Assembly (NCBI GenBank): GCA_011800805.1
Contig: MPNW01000132.1
Span: 213,065 to 277,064 of the forward strand
Direction of reading: 5' to 3'
Length of the DNA stretch: 64,000 nucleotides
From: Hirudo medicinalis
Taxonomy: Eukaryota; Annelida; Clitellata; Hirudinida; Hirudinidae
Every line of letters begins with the position of its first letter. The stretch's first letter is position 1. Made by a program: the position numbers and the translations under genes. This document shows, piece after piece, positions 11,871 through 58,800 of this stretch. The notes under the pieces are model-generated. The model was not told where the DNA came from and searched no databases. It saw only the letters and a program-made list of their open reading frames with translations.

Positions 11871-13351
11871 AACAAAATTTAAAATAAAAATAACTAATTA
11901 AAAAAAAAATCATTTCCAAATAAAAATATATATTTTTATGCAAATATGGCTTTGTGTGACCAATTTACAAAAAAAAAAACGCTCAAAATTTGATATAAAA
12001 TTGAACAGAGTTGGTTGCAATGGTTGTAAGATGTTGCCAACCCCGGAGCCATCATTTGACTTTTTGATGCAAAATTTCTTTGATCACGTTGGTTTCCATT
12101 TTCAAGATAAATTTCTTACCCAATTTAAGACAACAATAAATATTAAATAAAATAAAAATAGTTCGCTAAATTAAAAAAGTTACCAAATTACAAATATAAA
12201 TAAATCTGAAAGAGTGCCCACTTCAATAATCAATACTAGTCCAACCAAGTTTCACAAGTTTCGTATATTGCTATGGCATGCAATATTCTGACATCCAGAA
12301 ACTGGTAAAGAGTATGAAAGAGGCAATAGAAAAATTTGGACAAGCAGAGTCCGAAATCATTCATCGATAAATCCTTTAAATCAATGAAAAAAATGTGACA
12401 AGACACATTATTAACTTTATTTATTTTGTAACTTGAAAGCCTGTTTGATCCTGAAAAATAAAGATTTTTGCTGCCGTATGATGGTCACTGGTTTTTCGAT
12501 GTTTTACGCATTTTCGGTTTTTTGCTTAAATTCTAAAAAGTTTCTATTAACACTCAATGAAATTAATATTTCCCTCTAACTAATGAACTTATATACATCA
12601 TAGCAATAATTGGTATAAATATGATACCTAATAACATAACTATGATAAAAAAAACTCGAGTGTCGTATCCCTATATTCCTATAGGAATTGTTGAAATGGC
12701 ACCTTTCCAACTGCGCACTAATGCAGTCGCATAATTACATGACATCGCAATGGTTATTATAATTTTTTAAATAATTTTCTCAATATCACATTCTTGTATC
12801 GACCCACTAAATTACGAGAATAATAATTAAGTTAAATTTCATACGTTTTTTTTTCTTTTGTAGAAATACAATTTTGAATGACAAATCATGGTCGGCAATA
12901 CAGTATCGATAATATTAATAGAACGATATCTGCCTGTGCTTCTTCATTTATGAATCGGTGACCGGTTGGCTTTATTTTGTTTTGAACCAGAAACTGAAGT
13001 TTTTATCGGAAGCAAAGTGAGACAAATCCATTTTTTAATTGCAAGTTTTGGAATCATGGTAATCAAATCTTTCACATAATGACAATGTGCTATTACAAAA
13101 CTTTTGTTTTGACCTTTGACATTTTAACTGCCAACACTTTTTAATCAATTTTTTTTATGTTAACTTTTATTCTATTAACTTGGTGCATTGAAATCTTTCT
13201 GATCTCATTCCAGACATTAGACAAATTTTTAATTGATTTAAATTAATTCGACGCCTTTATTAAAATCCTAAATTATTCATTTCTTCCCACATGAATAAAT
13301 TTTCAATTTTCTTATATTAAAAAATGTTAAAAAACGTTTCACAATGTACAA
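11871..13351. other. Intergenic, AT-rich, nothing coding recognised
   Basis: The only signal of note is a minus-strand AATAAA (TTTATT at 13256-13261), about 91 bases beyond the channel gene's stop codon. It is a good candidate for that gene's poly(A) signal. Confidence 0.45.
13256..13261 (-). promoter_or_regulatory. Candidate poly(A) signal of the channel gene
   Basis: AATAAA on the minus strand about 91 bases past the TGA of the DEG/ENaC gene. Confidence 0.45.
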
Positions 13352-16300
13352 TCATTTTCTGCTTAAGAGAGAGTGACACGTGACAACCAAGATGTCTACA
13401 GCCAACTCGATGTATTCGAAGAAAGTCATAAAAGCAAATCCAAACCAGAGTCCCAAAATTCCACATAAATCAGAAAATAATTGAGTTATCTGTGAGAATT
13501 AAAAAAAAAACCTCGTAACTTGGACTTATTATTAATTACTGAAAGGTTTGAATGCCTTGAAGTCAGTTAGATTATCAAACTGCATTCGCTAATCACAAAT
13601 AGACAATCACGGGTGATCAATAATTTAAGTAAATATTCACAAACTCACTCCATAAGAGGGGGACTCTTCGAAGGTCTGCACTCGAAAGTTGGAGAAGTAA
13701 ACCTGAAGTTTCAGGATGTTCTTACTTAATTTGTCCTCACTAATTTGCCAATTTTCTTGTAAATATTTCTAAATTATTTAAATAAATTGTGGTTGGTCAC
13801 AAATTAATTTGAAAAATAAAAACCAATAAAATTAAACTTATTTTTCTGACTTTATCTCCTGGAGAAGTTGGCCAATCCATTGCAGATGTGAAATACTTGA
13901 AAGTTTCCTCTCTACCAAAAATAAATATGTATCAACAAATTCTTCAAAATTCCATGAAGATTTACCGGCATGTTATTGGACAATCACAATGGATGGAATT
14001 GTTTAAAAACTTCATTTTGACTCCAAAGTGGCATTCATCTAGATTATAAAATAAAATGTTAAAATATAAATTTGAATAATTACATATTTCGTATTGTCTT
14101 TTAATAAATGGAGATAAGTATGTATATTTTAAATTATTATTTAATGGCATTCTAAATTAATAGTAATTTGAAACAATAATTTTAAGGGTTAATTAACTAA
14201 TTAAATATTATTCATACATATTTATTTATGATTATTAAAAAATGTAATTGAATCAGCTGAAGAAAATGAAACTCTCGAATGAACGAAAAGACCTTGCTTG
14301 AAATTGTTGACAGAACAAATTGGCAGACCAGATTGGCTAAATGCTTTTCCCGAGTTTGGATAAAACGGATCTGAACAGTTGCACTCTTCTATGACCTTTC
14401 TTTGGAAGCAAGTGTTTTCGCAGGCCTTGAAGTTTAATAAATTTAATAACATTAATAATAATATATTTATCAGTATAATATTTGAAATTGATGAGCAGAC
14501 CTTGGTGCGATAATCCACAGGATATATTTCAGCATAAACGTCTCTGTCCATGTCCTCTCTATCAGATGAACAATCTCCATAAGGATCAGACAGACGTATC
14601 ACCTCGCTCTAAATGATAATGTTGGCTATTTATGTCAAAATTATTGTGCGTCCCTGGATTACCTTGTAATTAAAGAAAAACATTGGCAAAACTTATTTAC
14701 GAATAATATATTCATTAATATCACTTTCATTGATTTGGATTTATTTGAAATGTATCTTTGAAAATGCTTCATCATTTATTTAAGAAATATCAAGTTTTGT
14801 TAAAGTATGCTGGCCATTTAGAGGAGATTGCTTCTTCATCTATATGCTTGCAAAGTCTCAAGTACGACAAAAACTTTGTCACTAAATCTATATTTGTAAT
14901 TTTTAAAACCGACTAATCAGTCGGCCCCAAAGGTTATCGTCAGGTTAGTATGAAAATACGAAAATTTAAGGTGACAGTTACGTGAATATTTAAAAGTGAA
15001 ATTAAAATTTTATATACAAATGTCAAATATTTGATTATAGGAATGAAACTAAAATATAACATAAAAGAAAAAATTTTGAAGAGCAATTCTAAAATTGCAA
15101 CAAAGGCAACAAATGTAGTTACAATGTATCACCGTTTTCTTCTGACAGTGATGAAAGTACTGTCATTCAACAAAAATATTGACCCGTTATATTATTAAAA
15201 ATATCAACAAATAAAAAATAATTTTTATTAAAATTTGAGTGAAATGTCGCCTAAAAATAGAGACTAAAAATAAGAATGATTTTAAGGTTTACAAAAAAGA
15301 TATGCTGAATCTTTTCCATATGAAATCATTCGCTAATCTAAATCGAAATGTTATTAAAAACCGTGCTAAAGAGTCATCCGACAACGCAGAAGAACCTTAT
15401 CGATGCTTATGAAAGTCATCAATCCTGGTGGAACAGTGATTCCTTCGTCCTCAGGAAAAGCCAACTGCCTTTGACCCGACACCACCACCCTGACTCCTGC
15501 AACTTCACCAGCTGCTGATGAGTAACTTGCCTGATCGATGTTCATGATGACTTGAAGTCCTGTCATAGTTGTTACCGTGCGACTATCATAACCCTTATTA
15601 AGAGGCGATCAATAATGTAATAATTTATAATGCAACCTGTATTGTTATCACCGCTTGAATATTATAATATAAGAGTTGATCTTAAGATGAGAGTATGTAA
15701 CCCGTTGTTATTTGTACGATGTGGGCATTGTAATTTATCAATAATTCATATTTTGTGATAGATATTAGTATTTCACCTACCAGTCACGGAACTCACTTAG
15801 TTCCAAATTTAAATGTAAAGTTGAAATAAATAGATGAAATAGCTGATAAAAATCAAATAAATCTTTAACCACTCCCATGCCCTGTTTCAGTGGCCATCTT
15901 CAACGAGGAATTTTCATTCCATCCCGAGTTGAACACCCAACAGTTTCCATGAATCGGGTTGTTGAATTCAACATAATCACTGAAACATCGACACTTTCTT
16001 TTAACAACTTTCCTCAACAACCTGTAACTTGCCATTGACTTGTCGCTAAATTGGTGACTAAATAACCTGCCTCTCCGAGTCGCATGCTTCTCCTTGATAA
16101 AAACAAGCAAGAATCACATCATCTCTTTCGTAACCAATCTGCTTCCTCTTCTCTGCAGAAAGATTCAAAAAGCTTTCGAAATACATTTCTTGCTTCTTGA
16201 ACTCCTCATTCAAAGCTAATCTGCCCGGGAATCTGCTGTTATTTAATGCGGTTGGACCTTGGAAAGTGACAATGGAGGATGGATTTTGGAGAGCATCGAG

Positions 16301-18316
16301 AAGAGTCATGGCTGATTCTGTGGAGGCATTAAAACTGCCCCTGATCGAAGAAGCACAAGTTGAATCTCTGCAACATGTGCAACAACATTTCATTTCTTTG
16401 CTTGAAACATTTTCATAGTTCCAAGGAGAGTCGTATTGTGTCGTTGTTGAAATGAGAACATTCGATTCATCGGAATAGGTCAAGAATTCAGTTATGGAAA
16501 ACATTTTTGTGGAAATTGATGTTTCGCTCCTTAGCTCCGTTGATGTTGCTAATGATGTTGTTGATGTTGTTTGTGGTGTTGTTGATGTCGTTAACGATGA
16601 TGTTGTTTGTAGAGTTGCTGATGTTGCTAATGGTGTTGTTTTTGATGTTGTTGATGTTGCTGATGATGTTGTTGATGTCGTTAATGATGTTGTTAGTGAT
16701 GTTGTTGATGGTGTTGTTTGTGATGCTATTGGCGACGCTATCGGTGATGTTGTTGATGTTGTTTGTGATGCTATTTGTGACGCTGTCGGTGATAATGGTG
16801 CTGTTGTTGGTGATGTTGCCGGGGACGCTGTTAGTGAAGATGTTGGTGTTGCTGTTAGTGATGCCCTTGATGGTGTTGTTGGTGTTGTTGTTAATAATGC
16901 TGTTGGTGTTGTTGGTGATGTTCTTGGTATTGTTGATGGTGATGCTGATATTGTTCTTCCTGTTGTTGTTGCTGATGTTGTTCTTGGTGATGTTGTTGGT
17001 GATGTCGGTGCTGTTCTTGTTATTGTTGTTGGTGGTGAAAAAATAGTTGTTGATGCTGTGATTATATCGGTTGGTATTGTTGTTATTGTAACGAGAGATT
17101 TCGTGCTTTTGTCAGTTTGGGAAATTTTCGAAGATGTTGCTACATATAGGAGAAAAAAAATATTTCATTTATCAAGGGAAACATGAATATTTACAATAAA
17201 TAATGTGACAATGAATAAATATGATTCATTCAAGGAATAATAGAATAAATAACGAATGGAGCAACCTTCTTTAAGACATAAGTAATAAAACACTTCTTTA
17301 CAATCACTTTCTTTGTAAAATCCTTTTTGATCTCCACTGATACACTGGGCACCTTTGTTGGATCCACTATTACCCCAATTGCGATATTTTGACGGGTTGC
17401 CGTCGAGAAAATACGTCTGAGCGTTGGCACCAGGTCGAGCTTTAAATAAACCAAACCACCAATGACTCACTTCTTTTCGAACCCTGAAAATAATTTCAAG
17501 AAAAATCAATCAATCATCATGCGATTAATTATATTCAATCGCACACAAAAATTAAAATTACAGTGCTTTCAGTATGAAATTCAACTCGTTCTCGTCTGAT
17601 ATGCTGGCCAGTCGAGCATTTCTTTTCTTGCATTGAACTTCACCGTCGTCGAAGGATTCCTTTTCAAATGACATGTAGAAGCATTTGCTCTCGTATCCCT
17701 CCCAATCTGCCGGACATTCTTAAAGATTCCGATCAATTTTTTGTACGGTTTGAATTGATTTAGTAAAACTAAAAATGTACTTAAATTTTAATATATGCAT
17801 TAAAAAAATCAACAATTATTAATAATTAATTATTTATCAAATGAAAACAATTAAAATAAGAAAATGTCCACGAAAAATGGAAACGTCCACCTCCTCCAAC
17901 TTGTCTTTTCTTCCTGACGTTGACATGTGATTCCTTGACAGGGTTCATGTTGCAGAATGTCACTGATGGGAAAGTCAGTTCGTCTGGAGTTTTGAATGAG
18001 ATGACGACGTTCTTGGGGTAGGAAAGGTACTTTTCCACCAATCCCACGAGGCAATAAACCAATGCAAACGTAGATGCCAAACCAGCAATTCCCCAAAAGT
18101 AGGATTTAAAACGTCCTATATTATTTGACATTAAATAAGTAAATAAATAAATAACAATTATTCATTAAAATGTTATTAAGAAATTCCTTATTTACCTCTG
18201 GCTCTGAAGAAATTCGGGATGCCATGAGCTGTTGTTTCCATGTTGTTGTGGATAAAGAGTTTGACAACTTTGTGTCTCCATGGCAGATTGTCCAATTCAC
18301 ACTTGAATCCGTACAT
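13352..18316 (-). CDS. DEG/ENaC channel subunit with inserted C-type lectin domain and mucin-like stalk
   Basis: Thirteen exons give about 876 residues in frame: 18316-18196, 18115-17891, 17718-17562, 17483-17266, 17139-16071, 15979-15870, 15559-15396, 14608-14501, 14425-14293, 14038-13966, 13911-13851, 13702-13649, 13489-13352. The order is: cytoplasmic N-terminus with the family His-Gly (TTAHGIPNFFRARG); TM1; FPSVTFCNMNP; RKKRQ; a C-type lectin domain (CPADWEGYESKCFY to FYYLCLKE); about 190 Thr/Ser/Pro/Ala-rich residues; ENaC ectodomain (GNCWVFN, PYGDC, CNCSDPFYP, CDCPITC); YFSNFRVQTFEESPSYG; and TM2. These channels are trimeric Na+-permeable channels gated by ligand, acid or force. The lectin part suggests glycan binding at the cell surface (inference). 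The exon 5 donor is either a GC site at 16071, or a GT at 16067 used with a different acceptor. The start ATG is the first one giving a normal N-terminus; the frame stays open upstream. Confidence 0.85.
16530..17040 (-). repeat. Coding Thr/Ser-rich trinucleotide-like repeat (mucin stalk)
   Basis: ACA/TCA/CCA/GCA codon repeats read on the minus strand give TTS, STTSLTTSTT and similar units without a stop for about 170 codons, in frame with the flanking channel exon. The same DNA is also open on the plus strand as a Val/Asp/Gly-rich frame (16494-17186). That frame is a shadow of the repeat composition. Confidence 0.85.
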
Positions 18317-22238: not shown

Positions 22239-25200
22239 CTAAAAACCTCTGCCCCTCAGGAAGTGCCAAACCTCCAACGAAACGTGAAGTTCTTGTAGCT
22301 TGTTGGCCTCGACCCTCCTGAGGATCGCTAATTTGCAGAGGGACTTCAGAGCCAGGAGACATCGCAGTTTTGAGACCGGTTTGAAGAGATGCACCAACGT
22401 CTGATGACCTGCTGAAGTCCTCATCGTTTTGTTTCTCAATGCTTCAAAACTTTCTCTTGCCGCGTCTTTAAATTTGACCAAGTAACAAACTCTGCCGAAA
22501 ATTTTTGATGAATCTTCGAATATCTCGTCGACCTTTGATAGAAATTCTGGCACGCTCATCAACTGAGATGCTTGAAAATTTCTGACACAAAATTTGTCTG
22601 CGGTTCAAAATAATTAATTAGGAATTAATAATAATAATAAAATAATTAATTAGGAAATAATAATAATAAAATAATTTCTTATGAAATGCAAACGTTTCTG
22701 AAATTGCAAATCGTTGCGGACCTGTGTGATGTTCAATCCTTGTGTGCCTAATCCTGCCAGAGGTCGTGTAACTGACGGTGAGCACGTAACGATCATCCGA
22801 ACTGTCCCTCAGCACGAAGCTTCCATCTTCTTTCCCTCTCAAATGCTCTTCAATCTTTTCTACCGAACACGAACCCCAGTACCAGTTCTTCTGGAATCAA
22901 CAGAAAGAATGAAATCCCAACATTTGTTCAAAAGTATTTGAACGTCCTACGTGCTGAAGTTGTTTGAGACTCGTCATTAAGTCGTACTTGAGGCTCGGTT
23001 TGAGGCTCTCTGCGCAGGACTGACCTGGAAAAAACACGATAATTGCTGACTTTTAATTCAACAATATCTTTAAAGTGTTCGACAAATACCAAGTTGCTCA
23101 TCAACAACAAGCTTTGTTCGTTAAGAGGACGTTTGTTTGAGCTGTTGAAATGAATGAGGTGCTCGATGAAATATTTCAGTCAAGAAACGTTTTTGTACTT
23201 CAACACTTTTTGAATCTTTTTGAAACAAAATAAAATAAAAGTTAATTCACGGGGTTTGAAACATTTAAAAAAGAAACAAAATTGAAGAATGTTTGTGGAA
23301 GTCGTATTTTGAATAAATAATAACAGCAATTATGAAAATGGATCTCATCCATTCAAGATGATCCACTGCTTGTGACAGCACTTGCATTCGAGCTGTTCTT
23401 TGTTTTCCACTTTACGGAAACCAATCAATACGCACCTGTATCTGAGACAATCAGAAAAATACTTTTATGGCCGAAGCTATCACTCCAGGTAATCCAACAA
23501 CACCTGTTTATTCCGCTGACTCCTACGAGGATCGGTTTATTAATGAGATAATTTGCATGTTAAGGCTGGTGAGAATTATGCAAATCAGTTGCAAAAGCTC
23601 CTCATAATTCTTCTGCTGAAGTCTTTGCGGAATAAAATATGATTAATTTCTTGAATTTTAAGCAGGGAATCTAATTAAGTTTTATGGTGGCCTCGTGGTG
23701 ATGATTACAAATAATGGGGAACCATAAATCGAGATGAGCTTCATCTCCACAGGTGTGCTCATGTGCATGTGTGCTCTTGTGAGGAGTCCCATTAATAACA
23801 CGTCTCCAGCGAAAGGAGGCTCGCAAAATTGCGTTTTCTCGCTAAAACGGAAGCATGCCCCAGAGACATGAAGGACCAATGAGTGGAGGAATTGAACGAT
23901 TGAGAAATATGTTAGACTTTTTATGGGGGTACATTGCTTCTAAAGAGATTAGTCGAACATTTCTGCTCGCAAAGGTCGTAATGGCGCCAAAAATTAACGC
24001 TACTACGTGACAATGAGAATTTACGTTCTCCAAAATGGAAGGATTGTGTGGGTGGAAGGAAGAATGGGAGAACGGAGCACCAACATCTGCTGAGAGGAAG
24101 TTCTCTTTTGCCTTTTTAAAACTAACTTGTTAATGGAAGAGAAGTGCTGAGAAGTCAGTGTTAGGGTTGATTGTGTCGAGGTTAGGACATAAATACGGAA
24201 CAACCATCGCACGAGTCGACATTAACGACTCCCGAAGACTTGAAGCGTAAGATTACCGCTGTAATGAGTCCTCGTACTTCTTCTTTATTTCTTTCTTTCC
24301 TGTCACTTTAGCCGACATTTTTATGAGATATGTTTATGCTTATGAATAGAAATTGTTATTAATCAATAATCATTAAAATGATTAACAATTGTTATGAATA
24401 AGTTAGCTTATTTGTTAATATTTATTATTAACGATAAAATTTAACAACTAAATATTTAAGAACAGTAGCTACTTAGCGTTCAATTCGTTTCCAAATTAAT
24501 GAACCTTGAGACAGTTTTTATGACCATGTGACTACATAGTTACTATGGAGAACTGAACTTCGAATCCCTTAACCAAAAGTTCCAATTGCCAGTTCATTCA
24601 AATATATTTATTAATTTATTTCACAGGCAGGATTTAAATCAAGAATATTAGTAACATTCAAATAAGGATTATTAGTTTGAACATATAAATACATGAAAAA
24701 TTACTGATATACTGGTCCAACCTTTAAAACGAAACACTCGCATTGCTGCCAATGCTTGGTAATTTTGCAGTTCAGCAAACGTCATGCGATACTTGAGCAA
24801 ACAAAAGCACTTATTGCTTTACATTGCTGTTTGTCCTTCAAAAACATAGTTTTAAATCGGCAATTTTTGTTGCAAATAATTTCATCAGACTCCAATTATC
24901 TGCTACCCTTCCTTTCACTCCTCCATTAGGCCTTCCTTCCTCCTGATTGAACTTTATTACCAAGCATGGACTGCACAACTCGAAATTTATTTTTTCCTCA
25001 AACAATGGAACACAAAACACAATTTTTCGCTATGCAAACAGAAGCATCATATTTTCATTTCCCAGTACAAATATCCTGCCATCTTGGCGTGATGGAGCTT
25101 ATTACAGGCGACGAGAGAGTAACGAGAAAGAGTGTTCCACGAGGCTCGTCCATCCGGGCTTAAGTGCCCCGGTTAAGGTGATCCAGGACATCTCTTCCAA

Positions 25201-36300: not shown

Positions 36301-39300
36301 AACAAAACTCTATTAAAACTAAGCCAGAGTCAGAACTGAGGGAGATTTCAGTCATAATCTGCCTCACAAGTTTATCTTGTGACTCTCCATTATATCTTTG
36401 GACTGAAGATTGAAGAAGTTGAAAAACTCACTTGATAGGCAACCTCACTGCTAATAGTTTCCAAGAACTCCAAATTTGTTGGATAAAAGGCACATGCAAA
36501 CATGAAGTCTTGCCAAACCATGATTCCCAACTGATCAGCTAAATCATAAAATTCATCCAATTCATAAACCTAAAAGATAAAGATGTAAATTGATGCAAAA
36601 AATTTATTAAAAAAAAACTCTGCTTAAACAAACTTACTCCTCCACCCCAAACTCTGAGAATATTCATGTTGGCATTGGCAGAGGATTCAAGTAACCAATG
36701 CATTTGATCCTTGTCAATTGAACCTTGGAAACTCCCTGCTGGTATCCAATTGGAGCCTTTGCAAAAGACTGGTATTCCATTTATTTTGAAGTAAAATGTC
36801 AATCCTTAAAGAATCCATCATTGATTTAAAGAAAGTTTAGAAGTTAAAAATAATGAGTTGAAAACCATGGCTGTCGTTGACATTTTCCTGGATCAATTCG
36901 ACTGTTCGAAAACCGACTCGAAAAAGTCTTGAATCTTCGCACTTAGAGTCATCACAAACATCAATTTTCACTTCATACAGCTTTGCTTCACCCATCCCAT
37001 TAGGCCACCATAGGTCTACAATGGCTTGACTCTGTTAACATTTTGAAATGTTCAATCAATTTTGAGACATAAAAGAAAAACCAGAGAACTTCTTGTTTCA
37101 TTAAAAATATTAAGAAGTGCAAATTGCTAGATTTAATGCTAATTTCATGGCAAATATGCAAGTATAGTGCAATTCATAATTTTGGCCCAGGTACATTTTT
37201 GATGATAAATTTTATGTACTGGATTTGTTTTTTGCACAACGTACTGAATCACATTAGATTTACATAAAAATCTATTGAACTCAGACAAATATTTTGTGCA
37301 AATTTCACGAAAAATCAGAAACACCCAAAATTACTTATATCAACCAGAAACACTAAGGAGCATAAATTTTCATATTTACTAAAATCATATCTATAAATTA
37401 TAATTTATATGAAAGTCAATAATGTATCTTATCTCCTTTCTTAATAATAAACTCTATTTTTCAATGAATCCAGGAAAGGTTTCAAACTCTTTTCATCCAG
37501 TTCCTTCCAGGCCTTATTCAAAGCTTCTTTCAGATCCTGAACTGAACACTGAACACTGCTTCCCATTGGAGTGTACCTTCCTAGCAAGCAATCAAAACTT
37601 GACAAACTCAAGTCTTTAATAGCCTTTATTTGTCCTTTTCAATATTGATATATTTAATTCTCTTTCCAGAACCCATCTTTAATAACACAAACTATCAGTA
37701 CTTTTATTATGTAAGCAAGTTATGGATGTGAAGCCATTTATATAGATCCTTGTTATAATAATCAGCTTTTGTGAGTCCTGTAATAAAGACTATTTCCTGG
37801 ACAGGAAGAGCCCTTCGCTCAGTGGTGAAAACCTCAAAAAAATAACATCAAAGGCATTTATCGAACAAATCCCACTGATATTCGAATTTTATTGCTGAAT
37901 TTTATTTTATATTAATTAATTATGATCTTGTGAATGATATAAATGATATTTGGGTGAAAATTCAGCAGTAATTTAAAAGATAACTGTATAAATTGTGCTT
38001 CTTAAACCTGGGCCAAAATTATGCCACACCACACATACAAAAAAAATTAAAGTTGAAGATTTTTATAAGTTAAAGTGAAGATCAGGTGGTATGTAATAAA
38101 TGTAACATGCCATGAAACAATAGATATGGTACTTACCAGACGAAGTCATAATCCAACTTATTTACAAATCACGGTTATAAAACAGAGATAAACGAAAAGT
38201 TTCATCACATTTTATTAATTAGACACTGGCACACTTTCACACAACAAAGGCTAGAATAGAAGAAAAGGAAGTTTTTCAAAACTTATTTACATTATAAATA
38301 TTTGAAGCCTAATTCAAACCAGATTTATGAGAGTTTCGTGGATGAGAGATGAAGGTTTCAAATAAATCACTTCCTTCCTTGTGATGTTCAGTTGCTTCAA
38401 ACCGATTGTTTGAATGACCACGGCTCCATCCGTTTTGTCAGAGAGATCAAAATATGATGTCACTATTAACGTCCAACTTTCATTATCTGATAAAATTATT
38501 AAATAAATAAAAGTAAATTCATTATCAAGAATTTGACCACAGAATATTTTTTAACATCTTCATACCTGAAAATGTTTGAATTTTCACATCTCTGAGAACC
38601 ATTTTGATGTATGTTTCAATGTAAATATCCTTCCTGTAACATGCAGGCAAAATATAACTAAGTTTACCACAAGATTCCTTACAAAATTCCCCAAAATTGA
38701 CAACTTAGAATTTTATATTTCACATTAGCTATGGTTGGTAATTTTATTAAGAGAAACCTTAAAGCAAAAGAATTAATTTTAGAAACTATGGATAGATTGT
38801 GTGATATATAACCATATGCCAACAGATGGAAATGAAGGTCCCCAGTCCCATCCAAATGAGTAAGCAGCTTTTCTGATGAAGTTAAAGTGAGGTTCTGGTG
38901 GTACATCGTATGGATAACGAGCTTTTTGTTCTGATTTGTATAGCATCGAAGATGCGAAGGTCACATTTATGAAGTTCTCTCCTGGCTGAAAATGCAAACC
39001 AAATTCATTCCAACATTTGCACTAGCTTTTTAATAATCCAAGTACCAAGTGCTAACCTTTAAAAATTCCTTAATGTTGTATATATATTTTCTATGCATGT
39101 TATTGGCATTACCCACAATAAATTCATTGATTTGTATGGAAGCTACTGTATCCAGGCCATTACATACTAGATCAATTCCTTTTGAATGCAGCAATTCTTG
39201 GGAAACTGCATAAAGCCTCAGAGTTGCATGACATGTTATATTCATAATACTAATCAACAAACAATAAAATATTGCCATTTATCCCTTAGCTATTTATTTT

Positions 39301-53700: not shown

Positions 53701-55774
53701 TTGTTGTTGTTATTATTATTATTATTATTATTGTTGTTGTTGTTGTTGTTATTGTTATCGTTATCGTTATCGTTATCGTTATCGTTATCATTATCATTAT
53801 CGTTATCGTTATCGTTATCGTTGTCGTTGTCGTTGTTACTGTTATTGTTATTGTTATTGTTATTGTTATTGTTATCAAAATGAACAAATTCTTCAACAAA
53901 GAAACATTTCGTTGATTATTTAAATTAAAATCATTGGCTTTTGTTCTTTATTGTTCCATGTTTTGGGAAGCAATGTTGACGTTTGTAAGTGCTGATGAGT
54001 GGTATTCATTCGTCTGATCAATACACCTAATCTAAAATAGATAGAAATTTTTTTGACGATATCTCGGCTAATATATTGTGAAAATTACTGAAATTTTAGT
54101 TTGTTATGTAATTAATGCTTCAAAAGCTATGTATTAAATTTGGCAAAAAAAGATAGAAAGTAGACGTCAAAAGTCAATAATGAAAAAAAATATCTCCAGT
54201 GGTTTATTCGATGGATTAAAATCAAATTCTTGTTAAATTCCACGATTATTTTCTGAATTTTCCAAATTAATGTCAATTACGTCAATTTAATTACTAATGG
54301 AAAATTGTTGCAAATTGCTTAATGATGACAATTATTAGATTCCTAGGACCACCCTCCGTTCCACTATTTTATGATCCTTGAAATAACAAACAAATGAGAA
54401 CAGCTTTGATGAATTGTCGGGAAAATTCGTAAAACTGGAATTTATTTGAGAGTTAAAACTTAGTGGGAATAAAAGGCCATAACCACTTGAACGCACGGCA
54501 TTTAAACTTTTAAGGCACCCATTGGAGTAGAGATTGTCCAGCGAGTGAATTTTGCCGCTTTGCAAATAATAATCATTGGTTTTATGTCAAGTTTGAGACA
54601 CTATCATTAAAAGCAGTTGGACGAAGAAATAGAAGCAAAAGTAGATGTATGAGATGATTACGTTGGAAAGGGACTTTAATTAAGTGCGACAGAGTTACGA
54701 CCTTTACTTAGTTCAACCTATTTGCTAGAAATGCAAATTTTAGTAAAATTCCTTTAAGTCTATGCGGTTACTTTAAACAGCAAAGCAAGGGTGAGCATTG
54801 TGAGTACCCAGAGAAAAGGCATGCTAATCAAAGTTCTTATTTAAATCATAGGTTTCCCTTACACAAAGTTGATGAACAAAACTCTTTACCTTCAAGTCCT
54901 GGACTACGACAGATTCAGTAGAGATGACCCGATCGGAGAGGTTTGTATACCCCTTACCGAATTTAACCTATCCTCTGGACAAACTATTTGGAAGAACCTC
55001 CAACCCTGCAAAAGTCATACGGTTTGAAATAATTTTATCAATTATTGGTACTAAACTGTAATGAGCACCCTAAGTCCATTTGCATTGTATCCTGGAGATT
55101 GAACAAAATTAACTCAAACTCGAATTTTGTTAAAATTTGCTCGAGAGCTAAGGACTATTTTAGGGAAAGCTTGGAGAACTCCAGGTGGGTTTGTGTTATC
55201 ATCCATCAAACGGCCTTTTGACTGTAAACATTCAGAGGGCCAGGGATTTGAAGGCAAAAGACATCAATGGCCTATCAGGTTTTTGAGGTTTCGCTGATAA
55301 ACACTAGATGCGCCATGCAAGCTGAGACTTTAAAAGCGGTATCGCAGCTACCTTTTTCTGGCTATAATTAGCTTCAAAATTGAGATATTTTATTCTAATA
55401 CTTATGGCCATCGACTCACTCAATTTCAAACAAATTCGCTGAGGAAGAATTATCATTCCGCAGATCCCTACGTCAAGATTTGGATCTTGCTAGATGGAAG
55501 AAAGCATGAGAAGAAAAAAACAAAAATCATTGAGAAATCACTGAATCCTCAGTTTGGAGAAACGTTTACATTCGGCGTCCCATATGACAAAATAAGGCAG
55601 ACGTCACTCATGATCAGCGTGATGGACTACGACAGGATGGGCCGCAATGAACAAATCGGTCAGATTCTTCTCGGGAGTAAAAGTGGACCCATGGAAGTCA
55701 AACATTGGAATGAGATGTTCTCAAAGGCCAGGCAAGAAGTTATCCAATGGCATGTGCTTAAGGACTTTGGTTGA
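47702..55774 (+). CDS. SYT7-like: Synaptotagmin-7-like, C2A and C2B exons
   Basis: Five exons: 47702-47836, 47894-48184, 54852-55021, 55164-55278, 55464-55774. Synaptotagmin-7 is a high-affinity Ca2+ sensor for vesicle exocytosis and membrane repair. The linker ([18 protein letters not shown]) leads into C2A, with [53 protein letters not shown] and [15 protein letters not shown]2B follows, with [49 protein letters not shown] and the SYT7-type end [12 protein letters not shown] to QWHVLKDFG. The calcium Asp residues of both loops are present except that the last C2B position is Glu. The N-terminal transmembrane exon was not found. Exon 2 needs a one-base gap at about 48035 to stay in frame. 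Its donor is GC (GAAG/GCGAGT). Intron 2 is 6.7 kb and full of mobile elements. Confidence 0.88.
49810..51246 (+). mobile_element. Short LTR retrotransposon with 5-bp target duplication
   Basis: The left LTR is 49810-49923 (114 bp) and the right LTR 51136-51246 (111 bp). Both begin TGTC and end in GTAAATAAACTCGGTTTTAA plus ACACGACA. The target duplication TCGTG flanks it exactly (49805-49809 and 51247-51251). TGGCGC follows the left LTR as a primer-binding-site start, and a purine tract GGAAGGGAGA precedes the right LTR. The 1.2-kb interior keeps a gag-like frame (49923-50141, with [20 protein letters not shown]) and broken polyprotein remnants. No intact protease, polymerase or integrase remains, so it is non-autonomous. 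Confidence 0.9.
51747..52247 (+). mobile_element. LINE 3' end (CR1/Jockey-like reverse transcriptase tail)
   Basis: [20 protein letters not shown], then [11 protein letters not shown], in one frame, and [20 protein letters not shown] in another, are the thumb and C-terminal wording of CR1/Jockey-type polymerases. A frameshift near the N at 51888 separates them. An A-rich tail at about 52229-52247 marks the 3' end. Truncated at its 5' end, as is usual for LINEs. Confidence 0.75.
53112..53530 (-). pseudogene. Reverse-transcriptase C-terminal fragment
   Basis: The minus strand reads [18 protein letters not shown], then after a break GLSDYI-like [20 protein letters not shown], and ends with [10 protein letters not shown]. 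This order is typical of the region downstream of the polymerase core in a widespread class of invertebrate non-LTR elements. Stops interrupt the frame around 53395. It lies in the synaptotagmin intron. Confidence 0.65.
53686..53877. repeat. Compound microsatellite (GTT)n(ATT)n(ATCGTT)n
   Basis: TTG, TTA, TTG, then hexamers ATCGTT, then TTGTTA units over nearly 200 bases. The long single-letter frames over it on both strands are artefacts. Confidence 0.97.
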
Positions 55775-55886: not shown

Positions 55887-58800
55887 TTAACTGGAAATAG
55901 CATCATTCAGTCTTCGTTTCTTTGAGAAAGGTTTCATTCCTTCCATTTTCCTTTTCTTAGATTCCCTTTTTGCCAAATTCTTTTTAATTTTTCTTTTGGC
56001 AAATGCTTCAGGATTTGTTGATACCTTGAAAATAAATATTGCATGTAATAAAGCTGTTTGAATCTTATTTAAAGCTAAAATTGAAACCTGAGCTGATTTG
56101 GCAGCCTTAGCAGAGCACTTTTTGGAAGAAATTGTTTTGTTAACCAAAGCATAGAGTCTGGTGAATTCCTCAACTCCAGATATGCATTTCATGTGATCCA
56201 AGACCTCCTGGGCCAAAGTTTTTAGCATCACATCTGTGAATGGAAATTTAATTATTCTCCACAAAACACTTGACAGAATAAAAATGACAGGCCCTAAGAA
56301 AATCATACCTGCGTGAGGATTGTTGTCCAGCATTTCCCTGACAAGAGGAGTCATCATTCCTTTAAGATGCTTCCTTATCCTGGTTGGCCCAAGTTTTTCT
56401 GCTGCTGCTCCCATCCATACAAAAATGCTGTTTCTCTGTTTGTAATTAAAATTTTGGTTAACATTTTGTGAAAACAAAAACCCAACAAGAATGCCTAACA
56501 ACCTTCAGTGTGCATTGGTGATTCTTGATGACCTCAATATTCACTTCTTTGCACATCCTCTGAATGAGCCAATGAACTGATACTTTTGAATTCTCAGAAC
56601 TTTCCAAATTTTCTGGCAGCTCAAGCAGAATTTCAAGCAAGCACAATAGGTTTCCACACACCTTTACGAAGGTTTTTTTTTGATCATTTTCAAATTGATG
56701 TTGCATATGAAAATACCTCATAAAATTACCTCATTTGCAAGCTCTAAGCTCAAATCAGCTGTAAGTTGATAGCTAAATGTGCCCAACAATGCATGCAGCT
56801 GTTGTTCAAAAAACATATTTTAATATTAATGTAAGAAAAGGATATATAGAAGTTTAACAAACCTTATCTATGAAATCAATCTGAAGATATTCTAGTCTCA
56901 TGTTATTTGGTTTTTGGAGGGAGGTTGTTACAAGCTCTTTGAAATTCCATGAATTAAAAAGTAGTTTGAACAGCTGAGCTGCTTTCAGCCTTACAGGTTC
57001 GTATTCATATTTGCAGTGGTTCAATAGGTGACCTGAAAAAGATCATGAAAATTTAAAATTGTCTCCTAATTGTAGTCTAATACATGATAAACTTACCCCA
57101 AATGACAGCAAGTATCTCAGCATGTTGTGGATCTCTGATTACATTACAATGTGATAATATAACATGCAGCAGACCTAGCAGGCAGAATAAAAGCCTGTCT
57201 CTTTCTAGCTGTTCATTGTCATTAGTAATTGCCTACAAACATTTACAATTAAAATGCAAAAAATATTATTTTTAAATAAAAATTAAAAAAAAACCTTTTT
57301 GAATGCCTCAGGATGGATAAGATCACACAAAACTGGAAAAACAGATTTTAGATGCCTGTTGAAACTTACTGTCTCAACTTCTACAAAAATGCTTAGAACC
57401 ATCGTCATTAACATCAAGACATTTGACTGAAAGTAAAGTTCCAAAATGTTATGAAAAATAATTCTACAAGCTGTTAAAAACCTAAAACTGTACTTTGGAA
57501 CTGCCCATCCATTCAAACACAAGGGATCTCAATTTCTCACATTCATCTAGCGAGATCTGAAATGATTTTGTATTAAATTAATCTAATAAATTAAGAATGT
57601 ACAACCTCAAACCTTTTTGAGAAGGAATTTGATATTCTCTGAAGCCATGTTGACACATTTTATAGAATCATCATTTAATCTGCTTTGGGCCAATTGTAAG
57701 AAGAACATGATGCAGTAAGTGTCAAGGATGTTCTGTCAAAAAGCGCCAATTAATGATGAACCTTATTTACCTACACCTTATTTAAGTTTCTTAAAATTGA
57801 CAAACCTTTGGAAAGAGTTTGATGATGTTGTTGATGGTTTCCAAGGCAGACAGGCGACCTGCTTCGTACTCGTATTCGAGCTGCCGAGCAAGGAACTTCA
57901 TGTGTCCTTCCATGGTCTTGCTGTCGAGAGGATAGTCCAGCAGGTATGTCATTAGGGCCTGGAATAAAATTGTACTTGTTGTACTGTGAAGCTATTAAAC
58001 AATTAGAAATGTACACGATTCAAACCTTTCTACATTTGCTCTGAACATCAGGCTGCTCACTTTTAACTGACATTTCTTGTACTGTTGCCATGATTTGAGT
58101 CAACTCAGGAGCATTCAACTTCCTGCACAGAATTGCCTGCAAGGAAATGAACTTTAGTGAAAGAACTGTGAATAACAAGAAATTATGAAAGAACATCGAA
58201 CATGTAAAAGAGGAAAGGCTGTGGCATGTTTTGAGTAGTCATGGAGATCTCTTTCAGCATACATAAGCAGAACATGAAGCTGGTTCTCTGTTATGTTGTG
58301 GCATGTGACAAATTGCACAAGCACTTGAACTGACTGTTGAGTAACGATTTATGATTATTTCTTTAATAAAAAAATAATGAGCACAAAATCATAGATGGGA
58401 AATACCTTGAAGCACCAGTCAATCATATCAGAATGCTCGTTTTTCCCAGCACCAATGGTGGAGTATGTCTTGATGAGAAGGAACATCTTGGTGGAAATTT
58501 TCTTGATGTGATTTGAAATTGAAGGCAAAGGAAACCTTAGGAGTCTCATGAGACATTTCAGAGCTGCAGTGCACACCTGTCGTAGACATAATTAGCATGT
58601 TTCAATGAAGAAGCAGTAACCATTCCACAACCAACTGCTACTCTTCATCATCAACTCACCACTGTGTGTTTGCTATCCAATGATTTGGAAAGAACCGAAA
58701 CAAACGGATCCAGCATCTCCAGATGATGATTTGTTTTCATGTCAACAAAAGAGTGCTTGAGCAAGAGATGGAGAACCTAAGATGCACAGCAGAACTTATT

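Follow-up and report, generated by a model that had tools for sequence, protein, structure and literature searches.

Does a single gene of the medicinal leech encode a DEG/ENaC channel subunit with a lectin domain built into its ectodomain, and if so, how did the domain arrive there and what might it do to the channel? The question is raised by a locus within a 64,000-nucleotide (nt) window of the Hirudo medicinalis genome (GCA_011800805.1, contig MPNW01000132.1, 213,065-277,064 of the forward strand; all positions below are those of the window), for which a first-pass annotation had proposed a DEG/ENaC subunit with a complete C-type lectin domain and a mucin-like stalk in its ectodomain. Our spliced gene model and Pfam analysis uphold this proposal, and comparison with a lectin-free paralog on contig C23 strengthens it. 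We conclude with high confidence that a single protein-coding gene lies at this locus and specifies a DEG/ENaC subunit, with a lectin cassette in a phase-1 intron and, in the finger exon, a mucin-like stretch that apparently grew from an ACA/TCA repeat.

Structure of the channel-lectin gene

The gene consists of 13 exons on the minus strand (18316..13352), whose spliced sequence of 2697 nt including the stop encodes 898 residues, instead of the 877 codons counted in the first-pass annotation. Phases, earlier said to agree at nearly every junction, are consistent at all 12 of the 12 splices, and the junctions singled out at that stage (17891/17718, 17266/17139 and 16071/15979) are all recovered. 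Of the 12 introns, 11 are GT-AG; the exception, 16071|15979, is GC-AG. An alternative splice between exons 5 and 6, which uses a GT donor following 16067 and begins exon 6 at 15993, is also in frame (905 positions including the stop) and adds CRC before the conserved segment, with an acceptor that appears poor on inspection. We preferred the GC-AG form for its ENaC-like spacing and for its phase-2 junction, which is also found in the C23 paralog. In the window there are three N (21410, 51888 and 53623), none of which falls within the gene. A stop codon in the lectin frame lies directly 5' of exon 3, and the lectin can therefore be read only via splicing from upstream; neither the part bearing the first transmembrane segment (TM1) nor the channel body gives a channel unless the two are joined.

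Exon 1 (18196..18316) of the spliced model encodes the N-terminus with the His-Gly motif (residues 31-32, in TAHG from residue 29), the gating motif of DEG/ENaC channels, and exon 2 (17891..18115; 225 nt) encodes TM1, the palm strand FPSVTFCNMNP (89-99) and the motif RKKR (108-111, approximately 17904-17915). The first half of the C-type lectin-like domain (CTLD) is encoded by exon 3 (17562..17718; phase 1 in, phase 2 out) and the second half by exon 4 (17266..17483; phase 2 in, phase 1 out), as placed by the model and Pfam and, for exon 4, by alignments. Exon 5 (16071..17139), which carries the GC donor, comprises a mucin-like Thr/Ser/Pro/Ala stretch (approximately 242-475), a CCCTCC cluster (492-497), for which the paralog has a CCCFCC exon, and the start of the finger. 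Five exons that match ENaC structure then encode the ectodomain segment HGNC..FNSG (exon 6, 15870..15979), the palm/beta-ball segment GLQVIMNID...PEDEG (exon 7, 15396..15559), an ectodomain segment with YGDC (exon 8, 14501..14608), the Cys-rich thumb segment ACENTCFQRK (exon 9, 14293..14425) and the Cys-rich segment CDCPITC (exon 10, 13966..14038). They are followed by a thumb/palm segment (exon 11, 13851..13911), a palm segment including FEESPSYG that was compared with ENaC alpha (exon 12, 13649..13768), and the second transmembrane segment (TM2) with the pore filter GFA (residues 870-872; 13433-13441), a short C-terminus and the stop (exon 13, 13352..13489). An AATAAA approximately 90 nt beyond the stop (13256..13261) is a possible poly(A) signal.

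Channel identity and the pore filter

The identity of the channel is clear from several lines of comparison. Pfam recovers ASC (PF00858, E 6.9e-77) in two stretches on either side of a Lectin_C insert (PF00059, residues 135-237), which is the split arrangement that had been predicted, and these are the only families in the spliced protein, which is without REJ, GPS and PLAT domains. The best PDB match of the channel body is ENaC alpha (E 7e-46), and ASIC structures were also matched; the NCBIfam ENaC model matches at E 1.4e-69, but with 235 bits against a curated cut-off of 428. The marks of the family flank TM1, with TAHG (29-32) before it and FPSVTFCNMNP after it, and 14 cysteines (95, 586, 593, 610, 701, 726, 730, 739, 741, 761, 771, 786, 788 and 792) align with cysteines of ENaC alpha; we presume that their disulfide pairing is that of ASIC1. 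Thus the protein resembles ENaC alpha and gamma in its HG motif, two transmembrane segments, FPxVTxCNxNP, Cys-rich ectodomain and HGNCxxFN, as well as in its best PDB matches, whereas it differs in the CTLD and mucin-like stretch between palm strand and finger, in the CCCTCC cluster, and in the filter, which reads GFA where the corresponding region of ENaC alpha reads WFGSS.

The filter departs from G-x-S/T, the usual but not defining selectivity filter, which we did not take as a requirement for membership in DEG/ENaC. Among the fetched channel loci in which the filter was caught (L014 gave none, and unfetched contigs lie outside the count), the third filter residue is Ser in 11 of 15 and Thr in the other four (L003, L006, L008 and L012), and Ala in none. 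Three further filters in the profile scan, namely the second ones in L004 and L027 and an intron-split one in L011, are also Ser. Four rows of a narrower filter scan (L006, L009 on the minus strand, the first row of L010, and L012) were discarded, as they do not represent TM2. GFA is the sole filter without Ser or Thr in the third place among those read in this genome; the subunit thus has no hydroxyl residue there, and it may work only with partners.

The C-type lectin-like domain

The CTLD spans residues 117-237 and bears the signature of the fold. Lectin_C is matched at E 7e-11 in the full protein and at E 7.8e-13 when the CTLD is taken alone; the six long-form cysteines (117, 128, 145, 215, 229 and 237) are kept, and the WIGL-like core is kept as WFGL. 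Its matches include CTLDs of the mannose-receptor type and others, such as the IgY receptor, the PLA2 receptor, MRC1 and collectin placenta 1/SRCL, which share the six cysteines and the WIGL-like core; unlike these, the leech domain is without the calcium and sugar motifs and sits inside an ion channel. In addition, a weak match to an NCBIfam polycystin model covers residues 111-237, that is, the CTLD, with 21.7 bits against a cut-off of 1861. Seven N-glycosylation sequons lie downstream of the mucin-like stretch and none in the CTLD.

Ca2+-dependent sugar binding by such domains goes with the motifs EPN or QPD, and WND. In the leech domain neither EPN nor QPD occurs between NW and the next Cys, and YKE stands in the place of WND (NWGNSGSNKGAQC and YKESDC). 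Elsewhere in the genome, the CTLDs of contigs C1375, C1435 and C28 retain motifs like EPN/QPD and WND, whereas the CTLDs on C370 and C1169 are likewise without EPN/QPD. Direct glycan binding, which the first-pass annotation had put forward, is accordingly not borne out: from these motifs, classical Ca2+-dependent sugar binding appears unlikely, and binding of a protein or of matrix likelier.

A lectin-free paralog and the origin of the cassette

The assembly comprises 133.0 Mb in 1557 contigs, and exon-level searches gave 57 matches of PF00858 on 20 contigs and 15 matches of PF00059 on 12 contigs, these being best candidates among which some exons may be missed. The contig of the window (C132) is the sole one on both lists, and hence no second channel-lectin neighbour was seen in the assembly. 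Searched with the CTLD, the first 14 fetched channel loci gave no match at E 0.001, and no second copy of it was found elsewhere in the assembly at that threshold.

The closest relative of the TM1 exon found in the assembly is the C23 locus (44% identity), which was modelled as seven consecutive exons and two near its end; counterparts of exons 1 and 11 were not found and were left out of the comparison. The exon-start phases of the seven exons (1,1,2,1,0,0,1) are those of exons 2, 5, 6, 7, 8, 9 and 10 of the channel-lectin gene, and the TM1 exon is 225 nt long in both. In the paralog RKKR stands at the same place and is followed by a 96-nt phase-1 intron where the channel-lectin gene has its lectin exons, and the exon after this intron begins with the CCCFCC cluster, without a lectin and with only a short Thr-rich stretch. 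Pfam finds ASC alone in the seven-exon part. When the CTLD and the mucin-like stretch are set aside, the channel-lectin protein is 34% identical to the paralog over 512 columns (E 4e-101). Elsewhere in the genome, seven DEG/ENaC matches (on C450, C731, C1368, C422, C184, C258 and C787) cover the whole Pfam domain in one stop-free frame and coexist with the intron-rich relatives; perhaps they are expanded retrocopies.

The lectin cassette is a symmetric two-exon unit with phases 1-2-1, the insertion or skipping of which leaves the frame unshifted. The 11 loci fetched for comparison with its CTLD account for 13 of the 14 remaining PF00059 matches. On C370, by our reading of its splice sites, an independent CTLD shows this 1-2-1 pattern with an inner intron at the corresponding place, and the CTLD on C1169 shares the inner phase. 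Because the sequence similarity is weak (18% and E 7e-5 for C370, 25% and E 5e-5 for C1169, in a search among the 11 loci), these two CTLDs would represent the same kind of module and not the donor. The lectin-free paralogs suggest a gain as the direction of change, and the simplest history looks like exon shuffling of a CTLD into the phase-1 intron between the TM1 and finger exons. The C23 paralog could instead have lost the lectin, a less simple history given that a CTLD was seen in no other channel gene.

The mucin-like stretch and the RKKR motif

The mucin-like stretch (242-475) comprises 234 residues with 81 Thr, 49 Ser and 22 Pro, and its O-glycosylation is predicted. At the DNA level the stretch is a decayed trinucleotide array, with ACA, TCA, CCA or GCA at 131 of 189 codons and a single phase maintained through all 15 of its 36-nt blocks, and it reads like a recruited ACA/TCA microsatellite. 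The 189 codons form an open frame, against an expectation of approximately 3.1 stops (P(0) = 0.045), which by itself is weaker evidence for the reality of the gene than that from splicing and the paralog. The stretch is coding by position, within an exon that continues into the channel, and we do not argue a function from its sequence. TGT/ACA trinucleotide repeats are very abundant genome-wide, one of them having apparently become the mucin-like stretch. A genome-wide codon-pattern search for the Cys cluster gave 13,913 forward and 13,445 reverse matches, as compared with 13,559 and 13,085 for the reversed pattern, and was uninformative because of the thousands of such repeats.

The furin-type motif RKKR occurs once in the channel-lectin protein, just before the CTLD. 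Post-TM1 tails were read from the profile scan (23 rows, minus three TM1 fragments without FPxVTxC and one duplicate L011 row, leaving 19; several ended early at exon ends), and RKKR is present in one of the 19, which belongs to the closest relative, C23. As this paralog has RKKR without a CTLD, the motif is probably older than the lectin or independent of it.

Known systems and a proposed mechanism

A literature search found no described DEG/ENaC channel with a lectin domain, and the word "lectin" is absent from the main text of two DEG/ENaC diversity papers and one review (PMC10507113, PMC9234716, PMC10148893). Protein-database searches with the TM1 and CTLD part and with the channel body returned nothing at E 0.001, from a database that is evidently poor in such animal proteins and thus uninformative on rarity. 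Outside DEG/ENaC, an extracellular C-type lectin domain is known from polycystin-1 (PC-1, PKD1) and several sea-urchin REJ proteins (PMC7728438, PMC1934368), and the lectin domain of PC-1 is needed to activate the PC-1/PC-2 channel complex (PMC7728438). Gating by direct glycan binding, put forward as new in the first-pass annotation, is a hypothesis, and channel control by a C-type lectin domain already has a precedent in PC-1 (PMC7728438). Polycystin-1 and REJ proteins differ in their unrelated membrane fold, many other ectodomain modules and GPS autocleavage, and their CTLD is not nested in a pore-forming ectodomain. A second parallel is offered by the MEC-4/MEC-10 touch channel and shear-sensing ENaC, for which a matrix tether has been proposed: a coupling of DEG/ENaC channels to the extracellular matrix has been put forward (PMC10148893), and N-glycans are proposed as ENaC tethers (PMC7958617). 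In those systems the proposed tether consists of N-glycans or separate matrix proteins, whereas here the binding domain lies within the subunit.

The finger domain is the part by which proteolysis sets ENaC, and alpha and gamma ENaC are activated there by furin. We tentatively propose, at a confidence that falls short of even, that a non-classical CTLD captures a partner on a mucin leash and thereby shifts this protease-regulated finger domain. The subunit would be expressed at the surface with the CTLD at its outer, finger end, on a stalk of approximately 230 Thr/Ser-rich residues, predicted to be stiff and O-glycosylated; what the CTLD captures would be a protein, a matrix component or a partner on a cell surface, and not a sugar bound in the classical Ca2+ manner, and engagement of the partner, or a pull along the stalk, would shift the finger. 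Furin-type cleavage at RKKR may free the N-terminal end of the CTLD, and the TM1 fragment, judging from ENaC and ASIC, would probably stay bound by a Cys95-Cys610 disulfide. In a bolder version, which we regard as improbable, the CTLD is at first a loop held between palm and finger; once RKKR is cut, it would become the free end of a mucin tether, and capture of a partner would then pull the finger and gate the pore. By the lengths of mucins, a tether of about 230 residues would measure approximately 50-60 nm when fully extended, and if this version were true, exon shuffling and microsatellite recruitment would have given the channel its own sensor of force or contact.

Alternative explanations

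Taken as a whole, the explanation that joins the lectin-cassette gene with the tethered-CTLD mechanism is the one we favour, with a probability that we put somewhat above even. Several observations weigh against it. Skipping of exons 3 and 4 preserves the frame, and the lectin form may therefore be a minor isoform; at least one RX[KR]R motif arises by chance in approximately 10% of shuffles of this protein, and RKKR is present in the C23 paralog, which has no lectin; third codon positions vary least in the mucin array, where codon positions consequently give no sign of selection; and the third filter residue, Ala, stands against Ser or Thr in 15 of 15 paralog loci, so that conduction is only predicted.

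The frame-preserving cassette leads to the view that the lectin exons are optional and mostly skipped or idle, the main product being the ancestral channel with a mucin stretch. Exons 3 and 4 form a phase 1-1 unit, and the form that skips them has 773 residues, is open, and has the domain order of the paralog plus mucin. On the other hand, both lectin exons are open, with the six cysteines and the GT/AG sites kept, which suggests continued use, and we judge this view unlikely. A little less unlikely, in our estimate, is an action of the CTLD within the channel trimer: still tethered, or set free by a protease, it would serve as an agonist or a clamp in contact with neighbouring subunits or their N-glycans, in a polycystin-1-like manner. 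Soluble N-terminal PC-1 fragments that contain the lectin domain, itself required for channel activation, activate the channel (PMC7728438); RKKR adjoins the CTLD in the leech protein, and the seven sequons lie outside the CTLD and downstream of the mucin stretch. However, PC-1 and ENaC are unrelated channels, and a motif that the CTLD-less paralog shares need not have arisen to release a CTLD. A tether to an outside partner is slightly favoured over such an intramolecular agonist.

Direct gating of the channel through glycans bound by a Ca2+-dependent lectin has in its favour a complete six-cysteine CTLD within a channel ectodomain, but with EPN/QPD missing between NW and the next Cys, YKE for WND, and such motifs kept by the CTLDs on C1375, C1435 and C28 (EPN/QPD being absent from those on C370 and C1169 too), we consider it quite improbable. 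Less probable still is an artefact of the gene model or the assembly, in which the lectin exons would come from another message or a chimeric contig. The assembly is indeed split into 1557 contigs, and the neighbouring repeat array is difficult to assemble; against this, the gene holds no N, all exons are on the same strand, the in-frame stop directly precedes exon 3, the phases fit on both sides, and the CTLD has no second copy elsewhere in the assembly at E 0.001.

Other features in the window

Matches to other genes were also observed in the window. On the plus strand, a SUEL (galactose/rhamnose-binding) lectin-like domain at 2229-2588 (E 1.4e-6) scores 29 bits, just under the Pfam cut-off of 31.4; an Rfam tRNA match at 2655-2726, where ARAGORN finds no tRNA, is possibly a tRNA-derived SINE; and a C2 domain lies at 55334-55771 (E 1.2e-19). 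On the minus strand there are an SH2 domain at 22621-22896 (E 3e-10), in a gene that we take to be of the SOCS family, a beta-mannosidase exon at 36542-36805 (best PDB match, E 3.8e-21), to whose gene the minus-strand frames at approximately 33-40 kb may also belong, and part of a UTP20-like ribosome-processing gene at 55890-56504 (C-terminal family, E 1.1e-9).

Implications

The gene bears on how DEG/ENaC channels are coupled to extracellular tethers: here a binding domain and a spacer are built into the subunit itself, at the regulatory finger. The gene would also document the acquisition of a receptor module by a channel, through the shuffling of exons into one intron, and of a spacer apparently grown from a simple repeat. 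Together with its lectin-free sister, it would form a natural comparison, with and without these additions, in which tether gating and proteolytic control of the ENaC type could be studied.

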